Shown here one piece after another: positions 30,851 through 64,000 of a stretch of DNA of 64,000 nucleotides. Position 1 is the first letter of the stretch. Every line of letters starts with the position of its first letter. The notes under the pieces are model-generated. The model was not told the origin of the DNA, searched no databases, and saw only the letters and a program-made list of their open reading frames with translations. The stretch is taken from NCBI GenBank assembly GCA_032622095.1, contig CP136065.1, positions 22,928,134 through 22,992,133 of the forward strand, read 5' to 3'. A program made the position numbers and the translations under genes. This DNA is from Siphonodentalium dalli. Its lineage: Eukaryota > Mollusca > Scaphopoda > Gadilida > Siphonodentaliidae.

Positions 30851-31435
30851 ATAATTCTGTACAGTACAATCCTCAATATATTTGATAGATTCAGCAGTGT
30901 TCACAGGTGATTACAATCCTGAAGAAATTAAGTGATGACTTATTTTAGAGCCTGGTGCCATCAAAACATTAACATTGCATACCTGAATTCAATATAACAC
31001 CATAATCTTTGACTGATAAATTTGTTTTGTTGGAGAATATACATGATCATGATTCGTTTGTCAATTTTGTATACAATGTGAGAGTTGTTAATGGCCTTTA
31101 AAGCCAGAGTAGCCAGACATTTGAAGGAAAGTGACATTCTTTGTTAATTAACTGTCCTATCTTTCAAATTCAAATATTAATTTTGTATGGAGTGTTAATT
31201 CAAGCCATGGAATATGGGGCAAACCTTGTCTTACAGGTGGACAGGAAATTCCTTGGATTACTTTATGTGTATATAATTGACAATAAAACAATAACTAATC
31301 TTACCAGCCAACCCATGTTTCTTATAAGATAACAATCTGTATATGAATGGAACAATATTACAACATTCCCAGATTTTCATATTTAGAGTGAATTTCTCAC
31401 AATAAAAAGCATACTGTCAGGCTGCAGCTATGACA
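30851..31435. other. Upstream flank or intron of the HECT-like gene
   Basis: No exon was supported here. An open frame at 31141-31332 lacks splice logic and family resemblance. Confidence 0.35.
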
Positions 31436-31565
31436 AATTTCATAATGATCCGACCAAATGTACGACCTGTAGCCTGAATTGTTGACGCCTTACGTGCACA
31501 TGGACGACAAAGCCATGGCAATAGCTCAAACTTTACAAAGTAAAGTTGAGCTAATAAAAATGTTT
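31436..31565 (+). repeat. 3' fragment of the tandem-core element family
   Basis: CGACCTGTAGCC, then GACGACAAAGCCATGGCAAT and the hairpin AGCTCAAACTTTAC ... GTAAAGTTGAGCT match the right end of the element at 48391-49966. Only the terminal ~130 bp are present. Confidence 0.75.
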
Positions 31566-36680: not shown

Positions 36681-37490
36681 TCTCATATATATTTTTGAAG
36701 ACCTCTGTCTGTCTGTCTGTATGTCTGTCTGTCTGTCTGTATGTCATTAATACAAATCTACGATTCTCGACCGATCGGGACGAAACTTGGTACGTGTGTG
36801 TAGTTTGACCAGGCGGTGGGCGTTGTCGTATTGGCGAGCCCGTGCGGCGCCCGCTTCGCGCATGCGCAGACGAGATTTCTGAAACGGGTGGAGCTATCGA
36901 CTTGAAATTTGCTATGTGAATGTATCTTGCCCCGGATACGAATTTTATCGGGTCCCGAGCCCGTGCGACGCCAGCTTTGCGCATGCGCAGACCAGATCTC
37001 GGAAACGGGTGGAGCTATCGACTTGAAATTTGGTATGTGAATGTATCTTGCCCCGGATACGAATTTTATCGGGTCGCCGAGCCCGTGCGACGCCAGCTTC
37101 GTGCATGCGCAGACGAGATCTCGGAAACGGGTGGAGCTATCGACTTGAAATTTGCTATGTGAATGTATCTTGCCCCGGATACGAATTTTATCGGGTCGCC
37201 GAGCCCGTGCGACGCCAGCTTCGCGCGTGCGCAGACCAGCTCTCGGAAACGGGTGGAGCTATCGACTTGAAATTTGGTATGTGAATGTATCTTGCCCCGG
37301 ATACGAATTTTATCGGGTCGCCGAGCCCGTCCGACGCCAGCTTCGCGCATGCGCAGACCAGATCTCGGAAACGGGTGGAGCTATCGACTTGAAATAGCCC
37401 GGACAACGTCGGGCTGGGTAGAGCTGGTGGAGCTATCGACTTGAAATTTGGTTTTTGAATAGCCCGGACAACGTCGGGCTCATCGGCTAG
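36681..37490 (+). mobile_element. Non-autonomous Helitron-like element, compact copy
   Basis: The 5' end is TCTCATATATATTTTTGAAG followed by a (GTCT)n tract. The core has four ~121-bp tandem repeats. The 3' end is the hairpin AGCCCG-GACAACGT-CGGGCT, spacer CATCGG, then CTAG, with host T following. 5' TC, 3' hairpin plus CTRR and no target duplication are the Helitron hallmarks. It has no ORF for Rep/helicase. The same ends, in reverse orientation, bound the first module of the large array at 50-64 kb. The terminal hairpin occurs twice (37396-37415 and 37461-37480). Confidence 0.8.
36892..37385 (+). repeat. ~121-bp tandem core of the Helitron-like element
   Basis: Units are marked by CTATCGACTTGAAATTTG at about 36896, 37017, 37138, 37260 and 37382. 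They contain CCCCGGATACGAATTTTATC and a CGCATGCGC palindrome. Array units carry only two of these. Confidence 0.9.
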
Positions 37491-42408: not shown

Positions 42409-45400
42409 ACTAATTATTGTTCGAGTGATGTCGTTTTGGAAAATATCGGGCCAATTCGCCCATGTGTTAATTGTTCATGTGACCAACAACCTGCGAATGT
42501 TTATTGCTTATGTGTTCACGGGGTATTGACTAATATGTACCGCGCGCATGGTAGTGTTATCATTAACGGCAATTACGAGCTGAATTGTACTGCCGTTACT
42601 GATTACTGCTCCAATACATATGCGATAAATCATTTCAATTTAGCGAGTAATGTTTGCGTGCCTATATACAACGTTAAATGGTCAAATAACTATAGCGAAT
42701 TGTTTGTAAATAAAATCATGCATGATAAACGTATGCGCTCAAATGTGAACTCATTTGAAATAAACTTTAACAAAAATGACCAACCCAGATTGATATGTGA
42801 GACCACGATTAATAGACCAGTGGAGATAAGCCGAGAGTCTCCGGGGTCAGAAAATGGAGTTATTTCCCATGGCGTCGATAGCCGACAGCCTGTTCATGGA
42901 GTAATCTCCCATGAACCAGAAACGCGGTTTCTGAACATTTTAACTTTGAATGTGTGTGGCCTAGAAAAAAGGTTGCAATATAAAGAATTTCATGATTTGA
43001 TAACCCGTTACGACATCTTGTGTTTCTCAGAAACGAAATGCTTTTTAGAAGACCAAATAATTATACCTGGTTTTGAAATTTGTGTTGTAAAGGGAAAACA
43101 CATTGGTAATGGTACACGATCGGGTGGCATCATGATAGCGGCAAAGAGTGATTTATTTCAGTACGTTGTTCCTTTAAAATCGGACAACTCTAATGTCGCA
43201 TGGATACGCATTGATGCCAGTGATAAACAATCTTCACCGCTTCTTTTGGGGGCAGTCTACATACCCCCTGCAGGAACGCGATATGCTAATGATGATTGGA
43301 ATTTGAAACTTGAAGATGATATAAGGAAATTCCAAATGAAAAATGATTTACTCCTTTTAATGGGGGATTTTAATTCACGAACAAACAATGTCAGTGACGT
43401 CAGCACCGACAATGACACAGGGGACATGTACCATATTTTTGAAAATACTACTGTTTGTAAAACGGTTAATACATTTTTGTCGTCTATAGAAGATGAATAT
43501 TATGATGATGAATGTAATGACGATGATTTTGATAAGACTTTTCAGGTCCCAAATCGAATATCACAAGACAAAGGTAAAGTGAACTCTTATGGTTATAAAC
43601 TATTGGGTTTATGTAAATTTATGACATTATTCATTGTCAATGGGAGGTGTGGTGATGATAAATGTGGAAAATTTACATCATCTGATCGCACGGTAATAGA
43701 TTATGCACTAGGAACAAAACGCCTTTTGAGCAAAATAGAAAACTTCAAAGTCCACGATCATTGTTCTCTATTCTCCGATATACATGGAGCTATACACTTG
43801 GTGATAAAATTTAATTTCCCAAATCGATATATACGAAATAACTTCACCGACGAGAACTCCACTGTTGGTGAACAAATGATAAAAACGAAACGATGGGACC
43901 CACAAAAAGGGAGAATGTTACCCAGAAATATTAATTCCGATGACATTACGCTTATTATTGGTGAACTTACTGATTTGGAAAACAATAGTTGTTTATCCCA
44001 AACAAATATTGATGATATATGCGGTCTTATAACGAGAGCTCTTAACTCTGCGGCCGATCGTACATTGGGAACTTATAAACCTCAAAATAAAACGCGGGAA
44101 AATATGCGCAAAGACAAGGCCTGGTTTGATGGCGAGTGTCGAACACTGAGGAATCAATTTAACCATTCAAAGCGTGAGTACAATAAAACAAAATCTATTA
44201 TAGATAAAGATATAATGAAACAACATTGCGCGAAGTACAGAGGGGTTATGGATAGAAAAATTAAAGAAATGCGAGTAAAGCAAGTTTCAGAACTTCGAGA
44301 TGCAGCTAAGTATTCAGGTAAGTCATTCTGGGACAGACTTGACAAAATGTGTTCCGACAGCCAGACCAAAAAGTGCAGAGGAAACGTCACAATAGAACAA
44401 TTCGAGGATTACTTTAAGGATTTAAACCTAAACGACTGTAATGATGAATCGGATATTTCCGACTATGTCGATATGGACTTTAATGAAAATCACGAGTCGC
44501 ATCTAAATAGACCTATAACACAAGAAGAGATTTTTAGTGCTGTAAGCAAGCTCAAGAATGGTAAGGCAGTAGGGGCGGACCATATTTTGAACGAATATAT
44601 CAAAGAATCGGTCGGTGAAATGATGAGTATTTATGTCCGCTTTTTTAATCTCATTCTGAGTAGTGGGCATTTTCCGAAACAATGGGCTGTTGGGATGATA
44701 AAACCCATCTTCAAAGGATCCGGGGACCCAAATTTACCTGAATCATATAGAGGAATCACCCTTCTAAGTTGTTTTGCTAAACTGTTTACATCCGTTATTA
44801 ATAATCGTATATCGTCGTTTGCCGAAGACAATGACCTAGTAGATAAAATTCAGACAGGTTTTCGTAAGGGTCACTCAACAGTAGATAATATATTTATTCT
44901 ACATGCCCTAATAAACGTATACCTACAGAGCGGACGGAAAATTTATTGTACTTTTATTGATTTCCGCAAAGCATTTGATACTGTATGGAGAGATGCTCTA
45001 TGGTTGAAACTTATGCAAGCAGATATAAACGGTAAGATACTACAGGTAATACGAAGCATGTACGACAATATAAAATTATGTGTGAAAAATAATAATTCGC
45101 AATCAGACTTCTTTATCAGCCAGATTGGTTTATTTCAAGGTGAACCAATGTCACCTCTTTTATTTTCATTGTTTGTGAACGATATACAAAGTTTTCTGAG
45201 CGACTGTGCAATCTCAAACTTGAACTATTTTGATGAGAAATACTTTGAACATATTGGCTGTTTTATAAATATATTGTGTTTATTATATGCAGATGATACC
45301 GTGATCCTCTCAGACTCGGAGGACAATATGCATCGTGCACTTTCAGCATTCGCCGATTATGCCGAGGCATGGAATCTGCAAGTTAATACAATGAAAACGA

Positions 45401-46281
45401 AAATGGTAATTTTTACAAACAAATGGTCAAAGAACTTACCAATATTCACTTATAGGGGCCAAGAAATACAAATTCTAAAAGAATTTAAATACCTCGGTAT
45501 TAAATTATTTTACAATGGTAGATTCTGTCAATCGATTAAGCAGACCCAGAATACAGCAACGAGAGCCATGTATGGCCTTTTGAATAGAACAAGAAAGCTG
45601 CAGCTGCCTCTAGATATTATGTTTAAATTGTTTGACTCTATGATTATGCCGATTATGCTGTATGGTGGTGAAGTTTGGTGTTTCGAGAAAACTGAAATAC
45701 TGGAGACCATACATCTTAAATTCTGCAAAATTATCACAACAATGAAGTCTAGCACACCAAACTACATGGTATATGCAGAATTGGGGAGATACCCCGTAAT
45801 GATCGAAATTAAGTGCCGAGCAATATCATATTGGTCAAAACTAGTATCGCACGAAGGATCAGAATTAGCTAAAAATGTATTCCTTCTACTCAGGTATCTC
45901 AATGATGGTGATGCCATACTACAAAACAAGATTAAATGGATTTCGTTTATCAAAGAAACTCTGCGAGAAGTAAATATGGAAAGTGCGTGGCAGAATCAGT
46001 CACCACTAAGCAAGACAGACATGAAACACATGAAAGCGAAATTAATAGAGCAACACACATGTTGCCTCTTCGGCAATCTGAATATGTCTATTTCAAGCCG
46101 TGCCATATTTTATCGAAACATAAAGGATTCTGTCAGAATGAACCGATACTTAGTATATATGCCATCTCATCTAGCTACGTATTTACTGAAATTTAGAACA
46201 GCCAATCACAGACTACCGGTAGAGCAATGCAGATGGAATAAAAGTACATGTAAAGACACGAAATGCCCGTTATGTGGCTAA
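42409..46281 (+). CDS. LINE ORF2: endonuclease and reverse transcriptase
   Basis: The frame is open from just after the ORF1 stop to a TAA at 46279-46281, with no in-frame ATG until 42535. A Cys-rich ~160-residue leader (CVNCSC, YCLCVHG) comes first. Then the APE-type endonuclease: LNVCGL, SETKC, MGDFNSR, VIDYAL, and a variant FSDIHGA in place of SDHxP. RT follows: GKAVGADHILNEYI, FIDFRKAFDTVW, SQIGLFQGEPMSPLLF and the catalytic YADDT (residue ~951 counted from 42436). The C-terminus starts a cysteine motif (CKDTKCPLCG), cut by the TAA. It acts at chromosomal nicks by target-primed reverse transcription. The start mechanism is unclear (readthrough or reinitiation). Confidence 0.88.
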   Translation, partial: TNYCSSDVVLENIGPIRPCVNCSCDQQPANVYCLCVHGVLTNMYRAHGSVIINGNYELNCTAVTDYCSNTYAINHFNLASNVCVPIYNVKWSNNYSELFVNKIMHDKRMRSNVNSFEINFNKNDQPRLICETTINRPVEISRESPGSENGVISHGVDSRQPVHGVISHEPETRFLNILTLNVCGLEKRLQYKEFHDLITRYDILCFSETKCFLEDQIIIPGFEICVVKGKHIGNGTRSGGIMIAAKSDLFQYVVPLKSDNSNVAWIRIDASDKQSSPLLLGAVYIPPAGTRYANDDWNLKLEDDIRKFQMKNDLLLLMGDFNSRTNNVSDVSTDNDTGDMYHIFENTTVCKTVNTFLSSIEDEYYDDECNDDDFDKTFQVPNRISQDKGKVNSYGYKLLGLCKFMTLFIVNGRCGDDKCGKFTSSDRTVIDYALGTKRLLSKIENFKVHDHCSLFSDIHGAIHLVIKFNFPNRYIRNNFTDENSTVGEQMIKTKRWDPQKGRMLPRNINSDDITLIIGELTDLENNSCLSQTNIDDICGLITRALNSAADRTLGTYKPQNKTRENMRKDKAWFDGECRTLRNQFNHSKREYNKTKSIIDKDIMKQHCAKYRGVMDRKIKEMRVKQVSELRDAAKYSGKSFWDRLDKMCSDSQTKKCRGNVTIEQFEDYFKDLNLNDCNDESDISDYVDMDFNENHESHLNRPITQEEIFSAVSKLKNGKAVGADHILNEYIKESVGEMMSIYVRFFNLILSSGHFPKQWAVGMIKPIFKGSGDPNLPESYRGITLLSCFAKLFTSVINNRISSFAEDNDLVDKIQTGFRKGHSTVDNIFILHALINVYLQSGRKIYCTFIDFRKAFDTVWRDALWLKLMQADINGKILQVIRSMYDNIKLCVKNNNSQSDFFISQIGLFQGEPMSPLLFSLFVNDIQSFLSDCAISNLNYFDEKYFEHIGCFINILCLLYADDTVILSDSEDNMHRALSAFADYAEAWNLQVNTMKTKMVIFTNKWSKNLPIFTYRGQEIQILKEFKYLGIKLFYNGRFCQSIKQTQNTATRAMYGLLNRTRKLQLPLDIMFKLFDSMIMPIMLYGGEVWCFEKTEILETIHLKFCKIITTMKSSTPNYMVYAELGRYPVMIEIKCRAISYWSKLVSHEGSELAKNVFLLLRYLNDGDAILQNKIKWISFIKETLREVNMESAWQNQSPLSKTDMKHMKAKLIEQHTCCLFGNLNMSISSRAIFYRNIKDSVRMNRYLVYMPSHLATYLLKFRTANHRLPVEQCRWNKSTCKDTKCPLCG

Positions 46282-46712: not shown

Positions 46713-46786
46713 CAAAGAAATATGGAATATGAACTCCTTGGTAGTATCCAGAGTAGAAATTCATGGCATGATCAACGGGAACATGT

Positions 46787-47660
46787 CTCTATTCCGAAGG
46801 TTCGCTATTCCGAAGGTTCACTAATCCGAAGGTTCACTAATCCGAAGGTTCACTAATCCGAAGGTTCGCTATTCCGAAGGTTTTTGATATTTTAAAAGTT
46901 AATTCTATATTCTAAAGTAATGAGAGGGTTCTTTAGTACGAAGACTCTTTTTATGAAGGAAATAACTTAAAACATTAAAAAAATAAATGTGATTTTTGTT
47001 TTCGTGGGTTTCCTTGAGATTTAACCCTTTGGCGAGTAAACATATATATGTCGTCTATCGGCTGAGGACTAAAACGACATATATGTCGTTTTAGGAAGTG
47101 TTATTTTACGTAGACATAACTTCAATAAATCATCTGATTTATAAATGATTTACATAGGAGTTATTTTGATTAATATAATGTCCCAAATGCTAAATGCGGA
47201 CTATAACAGTGGGGCTCTTGCTGTCAATCAATACTGGAGCGCTATAACTTACTGTATAGCAGAATACCGCTGAATGGACATAACTGCAATTCAGACTTTG
47301 TACTGATTTTAATGTTGATGTTTCTTTCAAGTACAGATTGCCAGTTCGGGTAGAATGCATCTCTAACTCGTAGTTTATTTCAGTCATTGTGTTTTCAACT
47401 TTCTATAATATTAAAGTGATAAACTGATACTGTCTTCTTGCTATTAATAACCGACATCTGGGACAAATTAGATATTAGATTGGGGTGTATAAATGTACGG
47501 GGGCGCAAATTTTGATTCATTTCTGGCTAAAAACTCCCATAATAGAAAACCTTCGGAATAGCGAACCTTCGGAATAGTGAACCTTCGGATTAGTTAACCT
47601 TCGGATTAGTGAACCTTCGGATTAGTGAACCTTCGGAATAGCGAACCTTCGGAATAGAGA
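46787..47660. mobile_element. Foldback element with 16-bp tandem repeats as termini
   Basis: The left terminus has six tandem copies of CCGAAGGTTC(A/G)CTA(A/T)T (46793-46880). The right terminus has seven copies in reverse orientation (47551-47655). The order of the AAT and ATT variants is mirrored. The single-copy middle includes the palindrome AAACGACATATATGTCGTTT (47072). No ORF. This is classic foldback architecture. Confidence 0.85.
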
Positions 47661-48390
47661 ACCCTACCCAAGGTGGTCTAGTGAAGGCACACATAAAGGT
47701 CATGTACAGAAAGTGTGTGAATTTCTTATTGCACATGAACTCCATCCAGTACATGACCTAAGTTCATCTCTGATTGTCCAAATGAATCTCAGTAATATAT
47801 TTGAGAGTAATAAGTGACAGTACTACAGGTATTGGAAAACTATTTTGACCATCCGCGTTCAAACTCAAAGGGTTAAACATTATTTTAGGCCTAGTCCTAA
47901 GTCGTAATGCGAGGTTGGGTCGGTGGTAATGCAGGCATACATAAAAGCTAATTCGTACACTGGTTCATATGCACATTTTCCTTTTTGGTATTACTATAGG
48001 CTCTAGGCCTACTAGTTGATGCTGCTTGATGTCTGAAAAAAAGGATAAATTTAAGTTTGTGTAATTTTTTATTCTATTATAGGCCCTAACACTGGCCCTA
48101 GTTATTTTTTGTTGTCATTCCAGGGGATTCAACATATTTTTCATCTACTCACACAGATGAATAGGCTGGGTTATACCTTCAATTTAGTTGAGATTATCGC
48201 TGATTACTGCTGACTATCGCATAATTATCTGCCAAGAAAATATTTGTCTTGCACATGTTTGTAAACAGGAAGTAACATTTAATTTGGTCTTTCAAAGAAG
48301 GGACCAATATAGAGCGGTTGGTCGTTTTTACAGAGGGGTTTTGGGGTGGGTGTCTAACATTTTATGAAAAAGAAAGGGTGGGTGGGTGTA
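47661..48390. other. Intergenic, nothing recognised
   Basis: GGGTGGGTGGGTG low complexity near 48370. No exon or terminus found. Confidence 0.35.
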
Positions 48391-49966
48391 AAATGAAAGT
48401 GTCAATGACACTGTAGCTCAACTTAGGTAGGGGAATAATTTAATAGTTGACAGTAAATGGAGGAATAGGAAAGGTGCTATAATTGAAATGTCTAAGTAAG
48501 ACAAGATGTACATGTCAATATCGTCATTCATGACAGGTTTCATAATGATCGAATCAGGGATGTGGTGATTATGGTGTGCCAAAGGATTTAGTGATGCAAA
48601 GAGTAAATTATAAAATGGCCACCGGCAGCCTTGTTTTTTTCCGATTTACCCCAAAATGACTTGTTCCCATCTACAGCCTTTACAAATCTCATAATTATCT
48701 GACCAAAGGTACGACCTGTAGCCTGTGCCAAAGGATTTAGTCATGCAAAGAGTGAAATCCAATATGGCTGCTGGTGGCCATGTTTCTTAGCCAAACGACC
48801 CCAAAATGACTCGTTCCCCGTCTACATGTCAATGTCAACAGCCTTTACAAATCCCATCTACATGTCATTGTTAACATCCATGACAAATTTCATGAAGATC
48901 CGATCAACGCTACGACCTGTAGCCCGCGCCAAAGGATTTAGTCATGTATAGAGTAAAATCCAAGATGCCTGCTGGCAGCCATGTTTTTGTCTGAACAACC
49001 CCAAAATGACTCGTTCCCATCTACATGTCAATATTAACACCCAGGACAAATTTCATGATGATCAGACGAATAGTACGACCTGTATTCCGCACCAATGGAT
49101 TTAATTTTGAAATCCAAGATGGCCACCAGCAGTCATGTTTTTGGGCCGAATGACCCCAAAATGACTCGTTCCCTTCTACATGTCATTGTTAACATCTATG
49201 ACTAATCTCATGAAGATCAGACCGAATGTACGACCTGTAGCCCGCGCCAAAGGATTAAGTCATGCAAAGAGTAAAATCCAAGATGGCTGCTGGCGGCCAT
49301 GTTTTTTGGCCGAACGACCCCAAGATGACTCGTTCCCATCTACATGTCATTGTTAACATTCATGACAAATTTCATGAAGTTCCGACCAAATCTACGACCT
49401 GTAGCCCGCGCCAAAGGATTTAGTCATGCAAAGAGTAAAATCCAAGATGGCTGCTGGCAGCCATGTTTTTTGGCCGAATGACCCCAAAATCACTCGTTCT
49501 CATCTACATATCATTGTTAACATCCATGACAAATTTCATAAAGTTCCGACCAAAGCTACGACCTGTAGCCCGTGCCAAAGGATTTAGTCATGCAAAGAGT
49601 AAAATCCAAGATGGCTGCTGGCGGCCATGTTTTTTGGCCGAACAACCCCAAAATCGCTCGTTCCCATCTACATGTCAATATTAAGATCCATGACAAATTT
49701 CATGATGATCAGACGAACAGTACGACCGGTAGCCCGCGCCAATGGATTGAATTTTGAAATGTTTTTTGACCGAATGACCCCAAAATGACTCGTTCCCATC
49801 TACATGTCAATGTCAACATTCATGACAAATTTCATAAAGATTAGACCAAAGGCACGACCTGTAGCCCGCGCCAAAGGAAATTGTTGACGGACACACGCAC
49901 ACACGGACGACGGACGCCAAACCATGTCAATAGCTCAAACTTACAAAGTAAGTTGAGCTAAAAATG
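48391..49966 (+). mobile_element. Non-autonomous element with ~165-bp tandem core
   Basis: The left end AAATGAAAGTGTCAATGACA then CTGTAGCTCAACTTAG; the right end is the hairpin AGCTCAAACTTAC-AAA-GTAAGTTGAGCT. The AGCTCAACTTA motif is subterminal at both ends. The core has eight imperfect units (marked by CGTTCCCATCTACATGTCA at 48661, 48814, 49012, 49167, 49332, 49497, 49660, 49791), each with AAATCCAAGATGGC. Fragments of the family lie at 9732, 31436 and 32060. The layout resembles tandem-core DINE/Helentron-like elements of bivalves; the class is inferred. Confidence 0.7.
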
Positions 49967-50129
49967 GCAATGTAAAAAAAAAAAAAACCCACGTCTCGCA
50001 ACTTTTTTACGCCCCCCCCCCCCTGTAGGTATGCCCTCAAATACGTATGCTGATCCATAAAACAACGACAATCAAAGACTTCGGACTATTGAGCTTTCGG
50101 AATCTCGGACTTCGACAGTTGGGGTAGTA
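49967..50129. other. Flank of the Helitron array
   Basis: Poly-A, then poly-C, then single-copy sequence ending ...GGGGTAGTA directly before the array. The base next to the element on the minus strand is T. Confidence 0.5.
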
Positions 50130-50157
50130 CTAGTAGGCTTATTCGTCGTCGGAATAA
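50130..50157 (-). other. Outer Helitron 3' terminus (hairpin plus CTAG)
   Basis: On the minus strand TTATTC-CGACGAC-GAATAA forms a 6-bp stem. The spacer GCCTA and CTAG follow, then host T. This is the arrangement expected at a Helitron 3' end, but the sequence is unrelated to the inner terminus. It recurs at the end of every unit. Confidence 0.75.
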
Positions 50158-50585
50158 AGGTACGTAACCGTTTTGATATGTAAACACTGAAAATATTGAT
50201 CATCTCGTCAGTCAAATCTTGTTTGCATTTTGAGTAAGCTAAGTGTGATGGATGAAAACAGACTCTATGAACACCTCTGGTGCGATGAAAATAACACCAG
50301 TCATTATAGACATTTGTAGTCCACGTTTCCTTCTTCGTAAATCATATATGTACAATCGAATCGGTTGTGATAATATGTTGCCACAAGTATACGTCGAATT
50401 TCCGTGTATATATCGTTCTATAGCAGGCTTTACGTCTAGATTCAGTGGCTGGTTATTACCAGATTATAGACGGACCTACCCTATAATCGTATGGTCATGC
50501 ACATGCATGTACGGGGGAACAATCTAGGAAGAAGTGCATTGTGCTGTTCCAATGTTTCATGTTCAGAAAGGGCTAGTTTCCTTTT

Positions 50586-50646
50586 TAGCCGGGGTGGTTG
50601 GGTCGTAGATAACACGAGACGGGTAACATGACGCGGGTTCGAACAC
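50586..50646 (+). promoter_or_regulatory. tRNA-like A and B box pair in the captured module
   Basis: TAGCCGGGGTGG (50586-50597) fits the Pol III A-box consensus at 10 of 12 positions. GGTTCGAACAC (50636-50646) fits the B box at 9 of 11. Spacing is 50 bp. Each array unit repeats the pair. No tRNA acceptor stem can be formed, so a tRNA-derived SINE head or chance are alternatives. Confidence 0.35.
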
Positions 50647-51695
50647 CGACAATCGGGACATATTTTTCAAGTCTGATCTGATCGAGTTGCGGGACATGAT
50701 CTCAATGTTAACGCTCATTGAAGCAACTTAGCACATTTGAAGCATTATAGGGAGTGTTTGGGGTGGGGGCGGGGGGGGGGGGGTAGCCCCGGGATTATCG
50801 GAAGGACCCGTAATTTTTTTGGCCTTTAATTATCAAATAAAGATATATAAAAAAGTTTTTTTTTGTTAAAGGCTCACTTAATTTTCGAATCACCAGATTA
50901 CATTATATACAACATATTCCATATTAGATCATATTATATACCACTAGCCGATGAGCCCGACGTTGTCCGGGTTATTCAAAAACCAAATTTCAAGTCGATA
51001 GCTCCACCCGTTTCCGAGATATGGTCTGCTCATGCGCGAAGCTTGCGTCGCACGGGCTCGGCGACCCGATAAAAATCGTATCCGGGGCAAGATACATTCA
51101 CATAACAAATTTCAAGTCGATAGCTCCACCCGTTTCCGAGATCTCGTCTGCGCATGCGCTGCACGGGCGTCGCACGGGCTCGCCAATACGACAAGGACGA
51201 CCGCCTGGTCAAACTACACACACATACCAAGTTTCGTCCCGATCGGTCGAAACGACAGCACAACACGCATTTTTTGTTTTTCATGAATTAATTCATGGTA
51301 CCCGTCCCTCAAAGACTGACCCGATGAAAAATTCCCCTGTTCCTAGGACATATATGACACAACAACCCATTCTGCCTTTTTAATCGAGATAATTGCATTC
51401 CGCGTTTCGTTTTGCATCCGTATTTTACGCATGGGTAGCCGTTTAGCAGCTTCGATTGTAATAAAGAGCGTTAATCCTTAACACCTCCGAATATGGTCAA
51501 TATAAAGATCGTTGATGCCTTAACCCCCCCCCCCCCCCCGAAGTGGCGTTTGCGGTGATTTTGATGATTGTGAGTGGAGAATCGGTGTTCAGAGCTTGTC
51601 CAAAATGCGACGTCGACGATTCCCGTGGGTTTTTACCTTTAGATAGGAAGTTTGGTCTCGATCGGTCAACCCGTTTTCGATTCTATAAAGGACAT

Positions 51696-51736
<41 letters not shown>

Positions 51737-51807
51737 GGTCTTCAAAATATATATGAGACTAGTAGGCTTATTCGTCGTCGGAATAAAGGTACGTAACCGT
51801 TTTGATA

Positions 51808-51934
51808 ACATAACATAACATAACATAACATTTTTATTGACATAATACACCCACGCGGGGCAGTTGTCATAATACAGATAATTTAAACACAAGTCAAGAC
51901 AATTAACATAGATTACCGACTGTCGACGGAAGGT
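51808..51934 (-). other. LINE 3' end with (TTATG)n tail
   Basis: On the minus strand AATAAAAATG leads into about five TTATG/TGTTA units at the insertion border. The inner part ends in a 25-bp stretch (51910-51934) repeated at 56089-56113. Confidence 0.65.
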
Positions 51935-52815
51935 CCAGAGATGGTGAAGATTCATACGCTAGATTGAATATTTTCCATGAGCACTCAGCAATTGTACTCG
52001 ACAGAGATTTCTGGCCCGATGGAGCCATTTGTGTTCGTCTGGACACTCCAAGCCTGGATGTATCACGATCTGGACCTAACGATAGTGTCAGATCTCACTG
52101 GGGCTAATTTACGTCCCTCTCAAACAAGCGTTCGCTCATCAACAGTATGACGATTCTCAGGTCACTAACTATATATATTTTCATCATGATTACGCTCATG
52201 TCGTGGAATGCAACTGGTATTTTCTCTTCTTCATCATATCTATCAAAGATCTTGGACAACCAGAACATTGATATATGCGGTGTATCAGAACACTGGCTGC
52301 GAGATTCAAACTCATCATTTATGCAGTACTTATCCCAATATTACATTTCTCATACAGTGTGTGATGCGGGAATTTTTATTATATTTTCCAAGTATATCTT
52401 CCCTCATCCAACCATTCACATGATCTCTTTTCCAATTATATGCAGAAAGTTACCAATATATTTGACTCGTATCGCCCACTTGGAACTGTTGTTGTTATGG
52501 GTGATTTCAATGCCAACTCACTAAGAGCAAATCCACGAAGTGTCGCTCTCTCGTACCTCTATAACGACAAAGGTGTCTTCTCTCCGATTGAAAACACGTT
52601 CAAAGCAACTCCTGTGAAAACCTTCGTTCCTCCTATGTCGCCCGAATCGGGGTCAATAATTGATCATTTCCTCATGCATAAGTCTATGGAATATAAAATA
52701 CAAATGGTAGACATTCTAATTGATGAAAGTATTGACGTATCTACACATCGACCAATTGTATTGCATATGGATACATATAAAAGTATCTTTATCCCGATGA
52801 GCGCTGTTGCAATAT
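51935..52815 (+). pseudogene. Fragment of a second LINE (end of ORF1, endonuclease of ORF2)
   Basis: 51960-52080 reads as an ORF1 C-terminus (HSAIVLDRDFWPDGAICVRL). ORF2 starts at about 52147 with LMSWNATGI and GVSEHWL. A deletion removes the middle. MGDFNANS, SIIDHFL and a STHRPI (for SDHRP) then follow. It is truncated at both ends. It is a different family from the surrounding minus-strand LINE. Confidence 0.7.
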
Positions 52816-54307
52816 AAATCATTGAAGAATTTAACACTAATGTCTGGATCAAGATCGTCGTTATCTTTCCTACTATCATCTCTCATTTTTTTAATAAACT
52901 TCCAGTATTCACTCGGATCTGACGTTTCATTGTTTTCAAGTTCTATTGCAAATTTGTGTCGGAATAATTTAGCTCTATATTTAGTTTCCCTTTTTATATG
53001 CTTTTTTGGCTGCGCAAAATTTTTCAATTAAACTTTTGTTCAGCGGCTGCTCTCTCATTTCGCGCACAGCCTTTTGCATTATGCATTTTAGTGTTTTACA
53101 CTTATCATTAAACCACCTACGTTTTTTATATTGCTTAATTTTACCATTCTTTACAGTTTTGGATGCCGACTTATTCAGTCTTTTAAGAAGTTCCGTAAAG
53201 TCAGTTACAGCTTTTTCTGTGTCATTTGCGGTTTCTTCATAACGCGATACTCTTAACCTCGATAATTCGTCTTGGAAACATTATTGCCTTGTTTGCACTA
53301 TCTTTAGTCCATTTCAATGAATATTTCGGTACAGTATATTCATATATAAACATATTATCACAATTACTACTCTCTTGAAAATATTCTAAGTGAACAGCAA
53401 GTTGGCTGTGATCTGAAAATTCATTTGGATTTTTGACACAGAAATAGGACACGTCCGATAGATATTTCTCTGACACTATAATATAATCGACTACACTGCA
53501 CCCATTATATTGACAACTCGTAAAGTTCCCAAAAGAATCGCCGGGTGTTCTTCCATTGAGTATACGCAGTGATGCAGCTTTACATAATGAGAGGAGTTGT
53601 CGCCCAAAATGGTTTACTTTATCATCTAAACTTTCTCGTGCAGCGATTTCATCAACTTTATACGTATTGGGAAGGGGGCCATACCTATCGCAATCGTCTG
53701 TAACATAATCCGACCGTTTCGCTGTTCTCGAGTTAAAATCCCCTCCCAAGATAACAAAGTCGTCCGACTTACAATCTTTTAAAAGTGTTTCAATGCTGTT
53801 GTACACGGAATCGTAATTGCTACTATGAGCCCAGAAAGTCGAGTTCGCAGGAGGAATATATATGGATATAAATACTACATTCGATTGCATATTGAAGATA
53901 CTGCCACAAAATTCAACCCATATTGCGTATTGATTTAATTTCAAGACTCTAATTACAGAAGACTTATACTTATTCTTACAATAAAAGGCAATTCCTCCTC
54001 TGATTGTACTATTTGACCCTCTACTAAGATCAAAGCAGCAGTACCCTGGCATTTCTATATCATCCACAGAGTGGTGCCAGGTTTCTGATATCGTTATAAA
54101 ATCATATTTTTATAAATGCTTTCGGCAATCTTCATCGGTAATTTTATTCACAAAGCCTTGCGCATTCCAGGCAGTATATGCAATTTTCCGCCGACGGCTA
54201 TGGTTTTGCGAAAGAGAGCTCATATGTGTATATATATATAGGTAAGGATATTCGAAAAGGACTGTCGGGGATAGTCTAGATATGAACGTCAAAATTGAAA
54301 TAGGCAT
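52815..54307 (-). pseudogene. LINE ORF2: endonuclease half, RT missing
   Basis: The APE-type endonuclease is recognisable: AWNAQGF, SETWHHS, GGDFNSRT, VVDYIIVSE, FSDHSQLAV, all with catalytic residues present. A TAA interrupts at 54110-54112, and frameshifts follow near 53260 and 53020. The linker to RT (KFFNDLYCNSA) ends abruptly at about 52815, where oppositely oriented LINE sequence starts. No RT domain follows. Confidence 0.75.
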
Positions 54308-54628
54308 ATATTCCAGTCACATTGTATATATCTTTAAACTCTTTAGACCATCGTTTCAACACTAGTCTACCTCGTTAATTTTAAGTATCCAGACGCTGTT
54401 TCAACAAAACAATTATACCATTTTGCGTATATAATTGGACCAATATATAGCCGCGCAATTATTATCGTAAACGAATCATAAACGTATATTATAAATCGTG
54501 TTACCACGCATAATAGATTTATGCGACTATACTGCTACGCAATTGATTTGTTAGTACGGTAATATTGTAAATAAATAAAACAATCTAGATATATGATATA
54601 TGCATATACATGTATTTAAAAAAGTTAC

Positions 54629-56905
54629 CTACTGAGGTTTATGTTGGTTATTAATGTATTTCAGAATTTGTGCTAGTTGCTGTGAACAAAAAGATAGCTC
54701 ATCTGTTCTAACACTTTGAAAACACTGTTCTTCATTCTGACGAGCATTCTCGTGTCGATAGGAATTGATATTCCGATGTCCGAAGGCAAGTCCCATCTCA
54801 TTACCAGTACCCGTGTCTCGCTCAGTTGATCTGGTCGCCACAGATGATGTCTTGGGACGCATTTCCCGATACATCTGCCGGTGTTCCCCTGAAAAGTTTG
54901 CACGCCGATCCATCACTGTATCATCATCATATCTGTCCACTGCGATCTCATTCATTTCCTCATGGGGGTATTTGATATTCAATGCCAGAACTTTAGAACC
55001 ATCTCTATTTGGGTGCCAGTTGTCTCTGAACAAATCTACTCTAATCCTGCCGTGTGAAAGGAATGTTAAACAGTTGTCAACAAATATAAATCCATTCTTT
55101 CTGCATATGTTTTGATACTGCAAATTTGTATCATAAACAATCTCGTTGATCACATCCGAATGCATTGTTGGTAGAATGGAAGAAATCCTTATTTCTGCTC
55201 CACGGAACTGAGATCTGATGTTTGAAGCGAGTGATTCCAAATCACTGGCGCTGGTTGAGATACCATTCCTGCACGAATTGATACCAATATGTATCGTTAC
55301 TGTTCCAACATTTTGAAATTGCAAGTCTCCCTCGAGCCACGCATTAAGCTCTGTAATCCGTTGACCGATGTCACAATCGTACTGACTCGTTCTCGTTTCT
55401 TTGACATCTTCAGGGGATTAATTCCACCAACAACTGAATCTCCAACAATTAGGTGCAAGGGCATATGCTTTGCATATTGAAAATGGTGTCTGTCAAAAGT
55501 ATTCAGCTTTCTTAAAGAGGATACAGTATGTCTTTCTCTTGGACGCGGTGATACAATAACTTCACGGTTATTGGCGGTCAGTTGTGATGTTAAAGTTTGA
55601 CTGCATGTCAGTTCGAGTATTAATTTCACTCAACATTTCATCACTGTTGAAAGGAGATGCCAGCGGGTTAAGAATCGTGCTGATGAGTTTTTCGACTTTA
55701 TTTTCGTTCACCGTTCCATTCGCCGAACGTTCAACATTTTCTTCATTAATTTTTTTCCGTTGTTTTTTTCATTTCAATCATCTCGCTGCGCAATTTCTTC
55801 TGTTCATTTTTCAGTGAAGAATTGTCCCTTTTCACATCTTCTATTTTAGAAGAGAACTCTTTCTTCTGTTTATTGATTTCCGATTTTAGCTTTGAATTTT
55901 CCTTTTCGAGGTCTTCAATTTTAGAATTCAATTCGTTTGTGTATACTTTCATTGAGTTCTGCATTTGAGCACGTAAATCATTTATGAGCTGATCCGTGTT
56001 GTTGTCCTGTTCTATTTTAGATAAATTAATCTCTTCGACACATAGACTTAAGTCATTCACTGACTTTTTTAACAACGTTGTGGAAAAGAGATTACCGACT
56101 GTCGACGGAAGGTACACATTTTTACATGAAGACGGGAGTCGAAGTGCCAAAAGCCTGCCAACACCGTAGTATTTCTGATGCCAGGCCTCCTGGGTATCGT
56201 ATAGTGAAGTCTCATTTGTCCACATCCTGACAACTGAGACTTAACTGCTGGTGTAATGTGAACAACCGTTGTTTTATCCAGTGCCATAGAAGATAATTGT
56301 TTGGAAGCGATTGCATTTTTAATTTTCGTAACTTCTTCATCCGATGTTACATTAAATCCTTTCTGATAAATTTCTGGAAGATGGTTTTCAATCCACCATT
56401 CTACAGCCTTTTTTGAACCTTGTATCATAACTTTATTCTGAGTCTTGTATGTGTGCAAAGTAATTTTCGAACATTTTGTTTTTGGCACAGTTATGACATC
56501 TCCAACATAATTCCTATCAGTAGATTTATCATATACGCACTTCCAAACTGAAACTTCTTTTTCGACACATTTAGCGGAGTCCCAATATTTATGCGTTAAT
56601 CCTTCTGTGTATTTCTCGAACTGTATTGTGTCCAATGTCAAAGTAATACATTTCCCTTTGTCTTTAACGTCAAGTTGATACAATTCAGTTAACATACCTG
56701 ACTTTCTTGCAACCACTTTATTAACGTCTAGGTTATAGTCTTTAACTACCTCATGTCTGCAATCTGAAGGTGCATCTTGATCTTCCCATTCTTCCGGAGA
56801 TTCCTCACTCAGATCAGATTTCGGCTCTGTTCCATTATCTCGATCAGATTTCAGCTCTGTCTCATTACCATCCATATCCTTGTGCTTATCCATGTCCATC
56901 TCCAT
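54629..56905 (-). pseudogene. LINE ORF1: N-terminal domain, coiled coil, SGNH domain
   Basis: Start ATG at 56905 (MEMDMDKHKD). An acidic leader precedes a domain with WDSAKCVEKEVSVWKCVYD and VMIQGSKKAVEWWIENHLP. A long heptad-rich coiled coil follows (56000-55750: KIEDLEKENSKLKSEINKQK). Then a SGNH domain: LIVGDSVVGG, IHIGINSC, and DNWHPNRDG with Asp and His. It is broken by frameshifts near 56200, 55750, 55570 and 55320. Unlike the ORF1 at 40873, it has no zinc knuckles and keeps GDS. It would trimerise and bind RNA, by analogy to coiled-coil ORF1 proteins. Confidence 0.75.
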
Positions 56906-57780
56906 TTTGACTTTAATGACTATCCCCGAAGTCCAGATTCGAGATTTAGAAATTACCCATTTAATTACAGTGTATATACAATATATAATTTCACGGCGGA
57001 GCCGGAGCGAATTTTCGTGATATGTAAACACTGAAAATATTGATCATCTCGTCAGTCAAATCTTGTTTACATTTTGAGTAAGCTAAGTGTGATGGATGAA
57101 AACAGACTCTAAGAACACCTCTGGTGCGATGAAAATAACACCAGTCATTATAGACATTTGTAGTCCACGTTTCCTTCTTCGTAAATCACATATGTACAAT
57201 GGAATCGGTTGGGATAATATGTTGCCATAAGTATACGTCGAAGTTCCGTGTATATATCGTTCTATAGCAGGCTTTACGTCTAAATTCAGTGGCTGGTTAT
57301 TACCAGATTATAGACGGACCTACCCTATAATCGTATGGTCATGCACATGTACGGGAACAATCTAGGAAGAAGTGCATTGTGCTGTTCCAATTTTTAATGT
57401 TCAGAAAGGGCTAGTTTCCTTTTTAGCCGGGGTGGTTGGGTCGTAGATAACACGAGACGGGTTACATGACGCGGGTTCGAACACCGAAAATCGGGACATA
57501 TTTTTCAAGTCTGATCTGATCGAGTTGCGGGACATGATCTCAATGTTAACGCTCATTGAAGCAACTTAGCACATTTGAAGCATTATAGGGAGTATTTGGG
57601 GTGGGGGGGGGGGGGGGGTAGCCCCGGGATTATCGGAAGGACCCGTAATTTTTTTGGCCTTTAATTATCAAATAAAGATATATAAAAAAAAGTTTTTTTT
57701 TGTTAAAGGCTCACTTAATTTTCGAATCACCAGATTACATTATATACAACATATTCCATATTAGATCATATTATATACCA

Positions 57781-57810
57781 CTAGCCGATGAGCCCGACGT
57801 TGTCCGGGCT
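57781..57810 (-). other. Inner Helitron 3' terminus (hairpin plus CTAG)
   Basis: On the minus strand AGCCCG...CGGGCT stem, spacer CATCGG, CTAG, then T. It is identical to the end of the compact copy at 37490. It is repeated in the units at 50944, 59370, 60965 and 62574. Confidence 0.8.
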
Positions 57811-58569
57811 ATTCAAAAACCAAATTTCAAGTCGATAGCTCCACCCGTTTCCGAGATCTGGTCTGCGCATGCGCGAAGCTTGCGTCGCACGGGCTCGGCA
57901 ACCCGATAAAATTCGTATCCGGGGCAAGATACATTCACATAGCAAATTTCAAGTCGATAGCTCCACCCGTTTCCGATATCTCGTCTGCGCATGCGCTGAA
58001 CGGGCGTCGCACGGGCTCGCCAATACGACAAGGACGACCGCCTGGTCAAACTACACATACATACCAAGTTTCGTCCCGATCGGTCGAAACGACAGCACAA
58101 CACGCATGTTTTGTTTTTCATGAATTAATTCATGGTACCCGTCCCTCAAAGACTGACCCGATGAAAAATTCCCCTGATCCTAGGACATATATGACACAAC
58201 AACACATTCTGCCTTTTTAATCGAGATAATTGCATTCCGCGTTTCGTTTTGCATCCGTATTTTACGCATGGGTAGCCGTTTGAGAGCTTCGATTGTAATA
58301 AAGAGCGTTAATCCTTAACACCTCCGAATATGGTCAATATAAAGATCGTTGATGCCTTAACCCCCCGAAGTGGCGTTTGCGGTGATTTTGATGATTGTGA
58401 GTGGAGAATCGGTGCTCAGAGCTTGTCCAAAATGCGACGTCGACGATTCCCGTGTGTTTTTACCTTTAGATAGGAAGTTTGGTCTCGATCGGTCAACCCG
58501 TTTTCGATTCTATAAAGGACATACAGACAGACAGACAGACAGACAGAGGTCTTCAAAATATATATGAGA

Positions 58570-60157
58570 CTAGTAGGCTTATTCGTCGTCGGAATAAAGG
58601 TACGTAACCGTTTTGATATGTAAACACTGAAAATATTGATCATCGCGTCAGTCAAATCTTGTTTACATTTTGAGTAAGCTAAGTGTGATGGATGAAAACA
58701 GACTCTATGAACACCTCTGGTGCGATGAAAATAACACCAGTCATTATAGACATTTGTAGTCCACGTTTCCTTCTTCGTAAATCACATATGTACAATGGAA
58801 TCGGTTGGGATAATATGTTGCCACAAGTATACGTCGAAGTTCCGTGTATATATCGTTCTATAGCAGGCTTTACGTCTAGATTCAGTGGCTGGTTATTACC
58901 AGATTATAGACGGACCTACCCTATAATCGTATGGTCATGCACATGCATGTACGGGAACAATCTAGGAAGAAGTGCATTGTGCTGTTCCAATGTTTAATGT
59001 TCAGAAAGGGCTAGTTTCCTTTTTAGCCGGGGTGGTTGGGTCGTAGATAACACGAGACGGGTTACATGACGCGGGTTCGAACACCGAAAATCGGGACATA
59101 TTTTTCAAGTCTGATCTGATCGAGTTGCGGGACATGATCTCAATGTTAACGCTCATTGAAGCAACTTAGCACATTTGAAGCATTATAGGGAGTGTTTGGG
59201 GTGGGGGGGGGCCGGGATTATCGGAAGGACCCGTAATTTTTTTGGCCTTTAATTATCAAATAAAGATATATAAAAAAAAGGGGGTTTTTTGTTAAAGGCT
59301 CACTTAATTTTCGAATCACCAGATTACATTATATACAACATATTCCATATTAGATCATATTATATACCACTAGCCGATGAGCCCGACGTTGTCCGGGCTA
59401 TTCAAAAACCAAATTTCAAGTCGATAGCTCCACCCGTTTCCGAGATCTGGTCTGCGCATGCGCGAAGCTTGCGTCGCACGGGCTCGGCAACCCGATAAAA
59501 TTCGTATCCGGGGCAAGATACATTCACATAGCAAATTTCAAGTCGATAGCTCCACCAGTTTCCGATATCTCGTCTGCGCATGCGCTGCACGGGCGTCGCA
59601 CGGGCTCGCCAATACGACAAGGACGACCGCCTGGTCAAACTACACACACATACCAAGTCTCGTCCCGATCGGTCGAAACGACAGCACAACACGCATTTTT
59701 TGTTTTTCATGAATTAATTCATGGTACCCGTCCCTCAAAGACTGACCCGATGAAAAATTCCCCTGTTCCTAGGACATATATGACCCAACAACCCATTCTG
59801 CCTTTTTAATCGAGATAATTGCATTCCGCGTTTCGTTTTTCATCCGTATTTTACGCATGGGTAGCCGTTTAGCAGCTTCGATTGTAATAAAGAGCGTTCA
59901 TCCTTAACACCTCCGAATATGGTCAATATAAAGATCGTTGATGCCTTAACCCCCCCCCCCCCGAAGTGGCGTTTGCGGTGATTTTGATGATTGTGAGTGG
60001 AGAATCGGTGCTCAGAGCTTGTCCAAAATGCGACGTCGACGATTCCCGTGTGTTTTTACCTTTAGATAGGAAGTTTGGTCTCGATCGGTCAACCCGTTTT
60101 CGATTCTATAAAGGACATACAGACAGACAGACAGAGGTCTTCAAAATATATATGAGA
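58570..60157 (-). mobile_element. Array unit 3
   Basis: 1588 bp; inner CTAG at 59370-59373; short CAGA run (60119-60137). The G run near 59203 is short, and TAGCCCC is lost beside it. Confidence 0.85.
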
Positions 60158-61766
60158 CTAGTAGGCTTATTCGTCGTCGGAATAAAGGTACGTAACCGTT
60201 TTGATATGTAAACACTGAAAATATTGATCATCTCGTCAGTCAAATCTTGTTTACATTTTGAGTAAGCTAAGTGTGATGGATGAAAACAGACTCTATGAAC
60301 ACCTCTGGTGCGATGAAAATAACACCAGTCATTATAGACATTTGTAGTCCACGTTTCCTTCTTCGTAAATCACATATATACAATGGAATCGGTTTGGATA
60401 ATATGTTGCCACAAGTATACGTCGAAGTTCCGTGTATATATCGTTCTATAGCAGGCTTTACGTCTAGATTCAGTGGCTGGTTATTACCAGATTATAGACG
60501 GACCTACCCTATAATCGTATGGTCATGCACATGCATGTACGGGAACAATCTAGGAAGAAGTGCATTGTGCTGTTCCAATGTTTAATGTTCAGAAAGGGCT
60601 AGTTTCCTTTTTAGCCGGGGTGGTTGGGTCGTAGATAACACGAGACGGGTTACATGACGCGGGTTCGAACACCGAAAATCGGGACATATTTTTCAAGTCT
60701 GATCTGATCGAGTTGCGGGACATGATCTCAATGTTAACGCTCATTGAAGCAACTTAGCACATTTGAAGCATTATAGGGAGTGTTTGGGGTGGGGGGGGGG
60801 GGGTAGCCCCGGGATTATCGGAAGGACCCGTAATTTTTTTGGCCTTTAATTATCAAATAAAGATATATAAATAAAGGGTTTTTTTGTTAAAGGCTCACTT
60901 AATTTTCGAATCACCAGATTACATTATATACAACATATTCCATATTAGATCATATTATATACCACTAGCCGATGAGCCCGACGTTGTCCGGGCTATTCAA
61001 AAACCAAATTTCAAGTCGATAGCTCCACCCGTTTCCGAGATCTGGTCTGCGCATGCGCGAAGCTTGCGTCGCACGGGCTCGGCAACTCGATAAAATTCGT
61101 ATCCGGGGCAAGATACATTCACATAACAAATTTCAAGTCGATAGCTCCACCCGTTTCCGATATCTCGTCTGAGCATGCGCTGCACGGGCGTCGCACGGGC
61201 TCGCCAATACGACAAGGACGACCGCCTGGTCAAACTACACACACATACCAAGTCTCGTCCCGATCGGACGAAACGACAGCACAACACGCATTTTTTGTTT
61301 TTCATGAATTAATTCATGGTACCCGTCCCTCAAAGACTGACCCGATGAAAAATTCCCCTGTTCCTAGGACATATATGACCCAACAACCCATTCTGCCTTT
61401 TTAATCGAGATAATTGCATTCCGCGTTTCGTTTTGCATCCGTATTTTACGCATGGGTAGCCGTTTAGCAGCTTCGATTGTAATAAAGAGCGTTAATCCTT
61501 AACACCTCCGAATATGGTCAATATAAAGATCGTTGATGCCTTAACCCCCCCCCCCCCCCGAAGTGGCGTTTGCGGTGATTTTGATGATTGTGAGTGGAGA
61601 ATCGGTGCTCAGAGCTTGTCCAAAATGCGACGTCGACGATTCCCGTGTGTTTTTACCTTTAGATAGGAAGTTTGGTCTCGATCGGTCAACCCGTTTTCGA
61701 TTCTATAAAGGACATACAGACAGACAGACAGACAGACAGACAGAGGTCTTCAAAATATATATGAGA
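60158..61766 (-). mobile_element. Array unit 4
   Basis: 1609 bp; inner CTAG at 60965-60968. Nearly identical to units 3 and 5. Confidence 0.85.
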
Positions 61767-63358
61767 CTAGTAGGCTTATTCGTCGTCGGAATAAAGGTAC
61801 GTAACCGTTTTGATATGTAAACACTGAAAATATTGATCATCTCGTCAGTCAAATCTTGTTTACATTTTGAGTAAGCTAAGTGTGATGGATGAAAACAGAC
61901 TCTATGAACACCTCTGGTGCGATGAAAATAACACCAGTCATTATAGACATTTGTAGTCCACGTTTCCTTCTTCGTAAATCACATATGTACAATGGAATCG
62001 GTTGGGATAATATGTTGCCACAAGTATACGTCGAAGTTCCGTGTATATATCGTTCTATAGCAGGCTTTACGTCTAGATTCAGTGGCTGGTTATTACCAGA
62101 TTATAGACGGACCTACCCTATAATCGTATGGTCATGCACATGCATGTACGGGAACAATCTAGGAAGAAGTGCATTGTGCTGTTCCAATGTTTAATGTTCA
62201 GAAAGGGCTAGTTTCCTTTTTAGCCGGGGTGGTTGGGTCGTAGATAACACGAGACGGGTTACATGACGCAGGTTCGAACACCGAAAATCGGGACATATTT
62301 TTCAAGTCTGATCTGATCGAGTTGCGGGACATGATCTCAATGTTAACGCTCATTGAAGCAACTTAGCACATTTGAAGCATTATAGGGAGTGTTTGGGGTG
62401 GGGGGGGGGGGGTAGCCCCGGGATTATCGGAAGGACCCGTAATTTTTTTGGCCTTTAATTATCAAATAAAGATATATAAAAAAAGGGTTTTTTTGTTAAA
62501 GGCTCACTTAATTTTCGAATCACCAGATTACATTATATACAACATATTCCATATTAGATCATATTATATACCACTAGCCAATGAGCCCGACGTTGTCTGG
62601 GCTATTCAAAAACCAAATTTCAAGTCGATAGCTCCACCCGTTTCCGAGATCTGGTCTGCGCATGCGCGAAGCTTGCGTCGCACGGGCTCGGCAACCCGAT
62701 AAAATTCGTATCCGGGGCAAGATACATTCACATAGCAAATTTCAAGTCGATAGCTCCACCCGTTTCCGATATCTCGTCTGAGCATGCGCTGCACGGGCGT
62801 CGCACGGGATCGCCAATACGACAAGGACGACCGCCTGGTCAAACTACACACACATACCAAGTTTCGTCCCGATCGGTCAAAACGACAGCACAACACGCAT
62901 TTTTTGTTTTTCATGAATTAATTCATGGTACCCGTCACTCAAAGACTGACCCGATGAAAAATTCCCCTGTTCCTAGGACATATATGACCCAACAACCCAT
63001 TCTGCCTTTTTAATCGAGATAATTGCATTCCGCGTTTCGTTTTGCATCCGTATTTTACGCATGGGTAGCCGTTTAGCAGCTTCGATTGTAATAAAGAGCG
63101 TTAATCCTTAACACCTCCGAATATGGTCAATATAAAGATCGTTGATGGCTTAACCCCCCGAAGTGGCGTTTGCGGTGATTTTGATGATTGTGAGTGGAGA
63201 ATCGGTGCTCAGAGCTTGTCCAAAATGCGACGTCGACGATTCCCGTGTGTTTTTACCTTTAGATAGGAAGTTTGGTCTCGATCGGTCAACCCGTTTTCGA
63301 TTCTATAAAGAACATACAGACAGACAGACAGACAGAGGTCTTCAAAATATATATGAGA
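61767..63358 (-). mobile_element. Array unit 5
   Basis: 1592 bp; inner CTAG at 62574-62577. The C run at 63153 is short, as in unit 2. Confidence 0.85.
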
Positions 63359-64000
63359 CTAGTAGGCTTATTCGTCGTCGGAATAAAGGTACGTAACCGT
63401 TTTGATATGTAAACACTGAAAATATTGATCATCTCGTCAGTCAAATCTTGTTTACATTTTGAGTAAGCTAAGTGTGATGGATGAAAACCGACTCTATGAA
63501 CACCTCTGGTGCGATGAAAATAACACCAGTCATTATAGACATTTGTAGTCCACGTTTCCTTCTTCGTAAATCACATATGTACAATGGAATCGGTTGGGAT
63601 AATATGTTGCCACAAGTATACGTCGAAGTTCCGTGTATATATCGTTCTATAGCAGGCTTTGCGTCTAGATTCAGTGGCTGGTTATTACCAGATTATATAC
63701 GGACCTACCCTATAATCGTATGGTCATGCACATGCATGTACGGGGGAACAATCTAGGAAGAAGTGCATTGTGCTGTTCCAATGTTTAATGTTCAGAAAGG
63801 GCTAGTTGCCTTTTTAGCCGGGTTGGTTGGGTCGTAGATAACACGAGACGGGTTACATGACGCGGGTTCGAACACCGAAAATCGGGACATATTTTTCAAG
63901 TCTGATCTGATCGAGTTGCGGGACATGATCTCAATGTTAACGCTCATTGAAGCAACTTAGCACATTTGAAGCATTATAGGGAGTGTTTGGGGTGGGGGGG
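63359..64000 (-). mobile_element. Array unit 6, partial at the window edge
   Basis: It begins at the fifth CTAG/TCTC join and ends at the window edge in the G run of the captured module. The array continues beyond. Confidence 0.8.

Follow-up and report, generated by a model that had tools for sequence, protein, structure and literature searches.

In a 64,000-bp stretch of the genome of the scaphopod mollusc Siphonodentalium dalli (contig CP136065.1, here C5, positions 22928134-22992133; hereafter the window), we identified the left part of a tandem array, array A, in which eight units of about 1.6 kb are joined head to tail at the termini of a Helitron. The best explanation, and one that we consider likely, is that a solo Helitron insertion was read through to a downstream CTAG, that the product was joined at the 5' end of its parent, and that the array then grew stepwise to eight units. 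A preliminary description, made from the letters of the window, had recognised the element as a Helitron by its TCTC and hairpin-CTAG termini and its A and T flanks, which agrees with our results, and had taken the array to be a rolling-circle multimer deposited in one event, which does not. The genome searched comprises 2.23 Gb in nine contigs.

Judged from its sequence, each 1.6-kb unit is an ordinary non-autonomous Helitron of about 0.8 kb followed by about 0.8 kb of non-Helitron DNA. On the element strand a unit is composed of TCTC, a GTCT microsatellite, 122-bp repeats, a hairpin with CTAG 783-815 bases from the TCTC, a second module (module 2) and an outer CTAG. Module 2, counted from inner to outer CTAG, has 774-820 bases, the shortest being that of locus B, a partial copy of the array found elsewhere on the contig. 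Full units without an insertion, of which the window has four, measure 1588-1629 bp. The inner CTAG, which had gone unnoticed before, is a canonical Helitron 3' end, found at locus B and in every one of the eight units. It is also where the window's solo copy ends, and other genomic solo copies likewise stop at this point with A and T flanks. Solo copies and units share the 5' TC and 3' CTRR termini of Helitrons (TCTC ... CTAG), and a hairpin lies just 5' of the element's own 3' end (folding energy -6.4 kcal/mol, z -2.4). The target is A^T, whereas Helentron/HINE elements would insert at TT. By its termini, its hairpin and its insertion at A^T without target duplication, the element is classed as a canonical non-autonomous Helitron. 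Exact-pattern scans for this Helitron family in viral_contigs and genome_contigs, and a phage comparison, returned no match. The features of the array and the solo copy are listed below in window coordinates.

36681-37490, plus strand: solo 0.8-kb Helitron copy, preceded by A, running from TCTC to GCCCGGACAACGTCGGGCTCATCGGCTAG and followed by T, with 4.6 copies of the 122-bp internal repeat.
47669-50129, no strand assigned: left flank, including a 164-bp tandem array; also present at locus B.
50130-51758, minus strand: unit U1, 1629 bp, with module 2 at 50130-50943 and the Helitron at 50944-51758; read as the oldest unit.
50130-50133, minus strand: outer CTAG of U1, the putative de novo 3' end; on the element strand a 6-bp stem, TTATTC/GAATAA, ends 5 nt before it.
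50944-50947, minus strand: canonical 3' end of the Helitron in U1, at the internal CTAG; TGGTATATAATATG comes next.
51759-58569, minus strand: unit U2, split by an insertion of the long interspersed nuclear element (LINE) type into pieces at 51759-51807 and 57018-58569.
About 51808-57017, minus strand: the LINE-type insertion in U2, about 5.2 kb, with an (ATAAC)n end, TGATA on both sides and an endonuclease domain in the open reading frame (ORF) at 53237-54067.
58570-60157, minus strand: unit U3, 1588 bp, with module 2 at 58570-59369 and the Helitron at 59370-60157.
60158-61766, minus strand: unit U4, 1609 bp, with module 2 at 60158-60964 and the Helitron at 60965-61766.
61767-63358, minus strand: unit U5, 1592 bp, with module 2 at 61767-62573 and the Helitron at 62574-63358.
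63359-64000, minus strand: unit U6, cut by the window end; U6-U8 run on to 68157 (C5:22996290), followed by TTTGAAAG.

The joins are exact at 51758/51759, 58569/58570, 60157/60158, 61766/61767 and 63358/63359, with zero bases between the units at each of these five positions, as first described. They read GAGA/CTAG on the plus strand, that is CTAG/TCTC on the minus strand, and the 8-mer GAGACTAG is unique to them within the window, both strands being scanned. Two further joins lie in the adjoining stretches to the right, giving array A eight full units and seven joins. At the left border, CTAG at 50130 is followed on the minus strand by unique DNA beginning with T, also as described. The 164-bp tandem array that adjoins the Helitron array on this side (48502-49930), common to locus B and with a related piece at 31422-31557, is perhaps another repeat-bearing mobile element. 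The right border, where a break inside a unit had been a concern, was found at 68157 in window numbering (C5:22996290), precisely at the TCTC terminus and preceded by A on the element strand. The view that the breakpoints are Helitron-type ends and not random positions therefore holds, as they fall on the Helitron 5' base and on a CTAG. This precision speaks against a first duplication by ordinary unequal exchange or illegitimate joining in which the Helitron end would be a coincidence. The later growth does resemble ordinary array turnover and the two breakpoints have one base in common, an A, but no sequence match extends beyond it, which leaves homologous exchange without a substrate; we regard such an origin as extremely unlikely.

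Growth in place is indicated by an empty site. The tail of U1 module 2, fused to the right flank of the array, aligns across the junction, with zero bases gained or lost, to copies of a repeat resembling miniature inverted-repeat transposable elements (the MITE-like repeat) at two loci, L021 and L017, originally fetched for Helitron copies of their own. In both the repeat is uninterrupted at the junction point and no Helitron is present there; a third locus, L045, matches the module-2 side alone. These alignments indicate that a solo Helitron inserted here into the MITE-like repeat, and that module 2 is, over its final ~80 bp at least, native host flank of that insertion. By contiguity the remainder of module 2 and the left flank would be native too, in which case the left border does not mark an insertion. 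Since the module-2 tail is native, the array most likely grew in place. An insertion of a whole multimer at a target site does not agree with this finding, the ~80-bp tail of the inner module being continuous with the right flank in two copies of the repeat.

Target preference also distinguishes the two 3' ends. The family sample consists of 36 loci, the top places of the family search (39 of 8538 candidates scored) minus array A and locus B; 5' ends were counted in these loci and the solo region of the window, as exact TCTC ends with 60 upstream bases, L001-L014 standing outside the count. A precedes all 20 unjoined exact TCTC ends, and T begins all 15 non-Helitron 3' flanks. ATATAT or TATATA occurs within 20 nt in 13 of these 15 flanks, compared with 347 of 10636 A^T sites in window positions 1-50000 on both strands; those of L029 and L030 may in fact be 5' ends of sister elements, and without them the motif is found in 11 of 13. 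The inner flank of the array, TGGTATATAAT, is similar to the targets found, whereas the outer flank, TACTACCCC, is unlike them, with an AT content of 10/20, below every one of 13 flanks. When A^T sites are ranked by a position-specific target matrix, the inner flank falls within the top 4.0% and the outer flank at 74%.

The differences among units also have an order. Within array A the mean difference between units is 1.4%; it is 1.8% between U1 and the rest, and neighbouring units differ by 0.8-1.7%. Thirteen shared sites were compared, ancestral states being polarised with 30 Helitron copies as outgroup. At four of them U1 and locus B are ancestral and U2-U8 are changed (U8 has a third base at one), and at a fifth U1, U2 and locus B are ancestral and U3-U8 alone are derived. 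As the derived sites put U2-U8 after U1, the eight units were probably not deposited at once. Locus B (C5:22439314 onward, 0.5 Mb off) is a product of segmental duplication and contains the left flank, U1 and the beginning of U2, join included. Its BU1 is nearest to U1 (31 substitutions, versus 42-50 to other units) and has 10 of the 16 private states of U1, BU2 carries the U1-type base at one site, and a 4-bp difference from array A is common to both.

The one-event multimer of a 1.6-kb joined-end circle, as first proposed, would account for zero-base joins at seven of seven positions, for borders with A and T, and for the scarcity of shared substitutions, which occupy 6 of the 54 columns that vary among five units. 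It does not account for the native module-2 tail, for the derived sites that separate U2-U8 from U1, for private substitutions as unequal as 17, 13, 5, 5 and 8 in U1-U5 (p about 0.02), or for joins with sister families, presented below, and we consider it very unlikely. Star-likeness of the units was rejected as proof of a single event, random-tree simulations giving P 0.12-0.23, which is not significant. Alternatively, a local read-through circle could have been copied several times before joining, depositing several units at once in place, with homogenisation afterwards. Identical joins, the partly star-like U3-U8 and the conflict among shared sites would fit, and joined-end circles are described in the accessible text of PMC4778049; however, five sites nest U1, U2 and U3-U8 by position and the present sequence data hold no evidence of a circle, which makes this course improbable. 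We read the history of the array as that of a dimer grown stepwise, with exchange between units and with U1 left as the oldest.

From the solo insertion, the inner and outer ends, the exact joins and the five sites at which U1, U2 and the later units are nested, all visible in the sequence, we infer the following course. A non-autonomous Helitron of ~0.8 kb inserted canonically into the MITE-like repeat, at CTTTCAAA^TGGTATATAAT on the element strand, without target duplication, as the alignments across the empty site show. Helitron transposase supplied in trans would then have started at the TCTC end and bypassed the terminator of the element itself, a hairpin with CTAG, replication continuing through 0.8 kb of 3' flank and halting at a CTAG further downstream, beside a small hairpin. 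The resulting copy of the Helitron and its flank would have been joined exactly to the 5' end of the parent, yielding a dimer with a zero-base CTAG/TCTC join, either by insertion between the host A and the first T of TCTC or by recombination back of a joined-end circle; both routes give identical sequence. Finally, the unit would have multiplied stepwise to eight by in-register recombination or repeated insertion, U2-U8 deriving from a unit whose sequence was by then distinct from that of U1.

Several observations weigh against this course of events. The empty-site alignments have 67-73% identity overall and extend no further than ~80 bp into the tail of module 2, and about 10 locus bases slightly upstream of the junction are missing in both. 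The hairpin of the outer end is weak (about -3 to -4.0 kcal/mol, z -0.77), its folding energy not being special. Locus A has 17 CTRR sites between the Helitron end and a point 1.4 kb downstream; a perfect 6-bp stem is found at the outer CTAG only, but two other sites (CTGA, -4.4 kcal/mol; CTAA, -5.9 kcal/mol) fold better than its -4.0. No Rep/Hel domain was found in the eight window ORFs scanned with Pfam, a genome-wide search for Rep/Hel not having been made. The remaining eight of the 13 shared sites group the units differently, as repeat mutation or gene conversion would, and at two of the four sites at which U1 is ancestral, 4-5 of the 30 outgroup copies show the derived base. Homogenisation of a one-shot multimer that spared U1 could mimic the five nested sites, and the join at locus B could be a later, independent duplication, or locus B could have had its own turnover. 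Given the eight differently grouping sites, recombination between units is also likely.

Seamless joins are widespread in the family sample. Among 60 exact TCTC ends, 20 come after other DNA, 27 after a same-family 3' end and nine after the 3' end of a sister family, and four are in inexact joins (three without the G of CTAG, one with four extra bases). Exact CTAG/TCTC joins thus hold 36 of the 60 counted 5' ends, nine of them with sister families, a frequency that applies to well-preserved copies and not to the whole family. Regarding the 3' side, 42 of 57 CTAG ends adjoin a Helitron 5' end and 15 adjoin other DNA; the 31 joins scored as own in this count include some sister ends. Neighbour divergence was compared in the nine same-family pairs with both units complete. 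Their median difference is 5.1%, with unequal lengths in nine of nine, compared with 4.5% for 250 pairs across loci, and one of the nine is closer than the 5th percentile of unlinked pairs; this test is the weaker because a single-burst spread of the family would make old sister pairs nearly as distant as unlinked copies. Serial insertion into A/TCT agrees better than a one-circle multimer with two of these results, namely that different families are joined and that adjacent copies are not closer to each other than unlinked ones are. Array A is unlike the sampled joins in that its neighbouring units are sisters. An exact CTAG/TCTC join is by itself no proof of rolling-circle concatemerisation.

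The Helitron 5' terminus, A followed by TCTnATATATATTTT and similar in the sister families, resembles the preferred target. Each insertion may thus recreate a landing site on its own 5' side, so that chains of related or unrelated members would grow one way with zero-base joins, and an occasional read-through onto the parent would found a satellite carrying host DNA. We offer this extension tentatively, its chances being in our view a little short of even: the ATATAT test is positive, and the position-specific matrix, which ranks the 5' end of the element itself no higher than 34%, counts against self-targeting in this form. The sister families, found in L018, L019, L023, L030, L031, L042-L044 and L047, have 5' ends such as TCTACTATATATTTTGAG and TCTATTATATATTTTGGAAG and the 3' end GCCGCCAGTGGCGGGCTAACCTGCTAG, and are joined to one another or to the Helitron family of the array. 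Longer chains with several joins occur in L019, L027 and L030; in L030 an identical sister-family join at 3000 and 7580 resembles a tandem duplication of a 4.6-kb piece.

The window contains other repeats. An apparent LINE occupies 40873-46281 on the plus strand, with two long ORFs encoding a 511-aa protein and a 1281-aa endonuclease/reverse transcriptase protein; in a protein search with the LINE reverse transcriptase, the 120 matches listed of 1308 include the molluscs Mizuhopecten yessoensis and Mytilus edulis and metagenome-assembled genomes named Candidatus Thiodiazotropha and Sedimenticola. Directly past it, 0.7 kb apart, are two mutually inverted arrays of 16-bp period (46786-46884 and 47546-47663). 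A Gypsy-like retroelement lies in pieces at 20153-23816 on the minus strand, with reverse transcriptase/RNase H and integrase ORFs, and a direct repeat of 0.83 kb with 96% identity is found at 28218-29044 and 29846-30673.

Abutting and tandem Helitrons have precedents. The accessible texts cite tandem Helitrons in plants and bats (PMC5876387), maize Helitrons inserted close to or within others (PMC3288121), and three fungal copies in tandem with self-insertion (PMC5148889); those of PMC9646362 and PMC3789558 hold nothing on joins. An in-place array of a Helitron with its native flank was not found in the open-licence literature searched. Like the oyster HINE/Helentron elements as described in the available part of PMC7492417, the element has a tetranucleotide microsatellite near the 5' end, internal tandem repeats and a palindrome near the 3' end; the oyster HINEs target TT and carry subterminal inverted repeats, whereas the element of the array has an A^T target and TC/CTAG ends. 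In a maize pair of adjacent Helitrons, the accessible text of PMC2267711 reports a zero-base G/T join, CTAG/TC, and in one of its two models a later element inserts into the A^T to which the first element contributed the T. Serial insertion of this kind yields the same join, which consequently does not single out a multimer; the maize case is a single pair of unrelated elements, while here there are tens of joins in the sample and one amplified array. Seamless CTAG/TC joins have been taken as marks of rolling-circle concatemers, and here one genome has them between and within families. Neighbour divergence, empty sites and the flank content of units are tests that separate serial insertion, in-place read-through and true multimers.

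Tandem plant Helitron arrays have been ascribed to rolling-circle amplification under a concatemer model (Xiong et al. 2016, as cited in the available parts of PMC12628747 and PMC5148889). Array A is likewise in tandem, but the plant elements are described there as truncated, many having several 5' ends and one 3' end, whereas every unit of array A keeps both ends and the flank. For the bat element Helraiser, the accessible text of PMC4778049 reports experimental bypass of the 3' end with transduction of flank to a new 3' end, joined-end circles with TC-CTAG junctions, AT-rich targets, most strongly on the 3' side, and Helitrons abutting one another. The bypass, the flank taken to a new 3' end, the precise TC/CTAG joining and the A^T target, AT-rich mostly on the 3' side, are features that our reading of array A would share with it. 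The same text gives 701 new Helraiser insertions without clustering near donor sites, which counts against frequent local return in that system. In contrast to Helraiser, whose product moves to new loci, the product here appears to have stayed attached to its parent and become an array of eight units, begun from a single insertion whose empty site remains readable, and this suggests a concrete path from a transposon to a satellite that carries host DNA.

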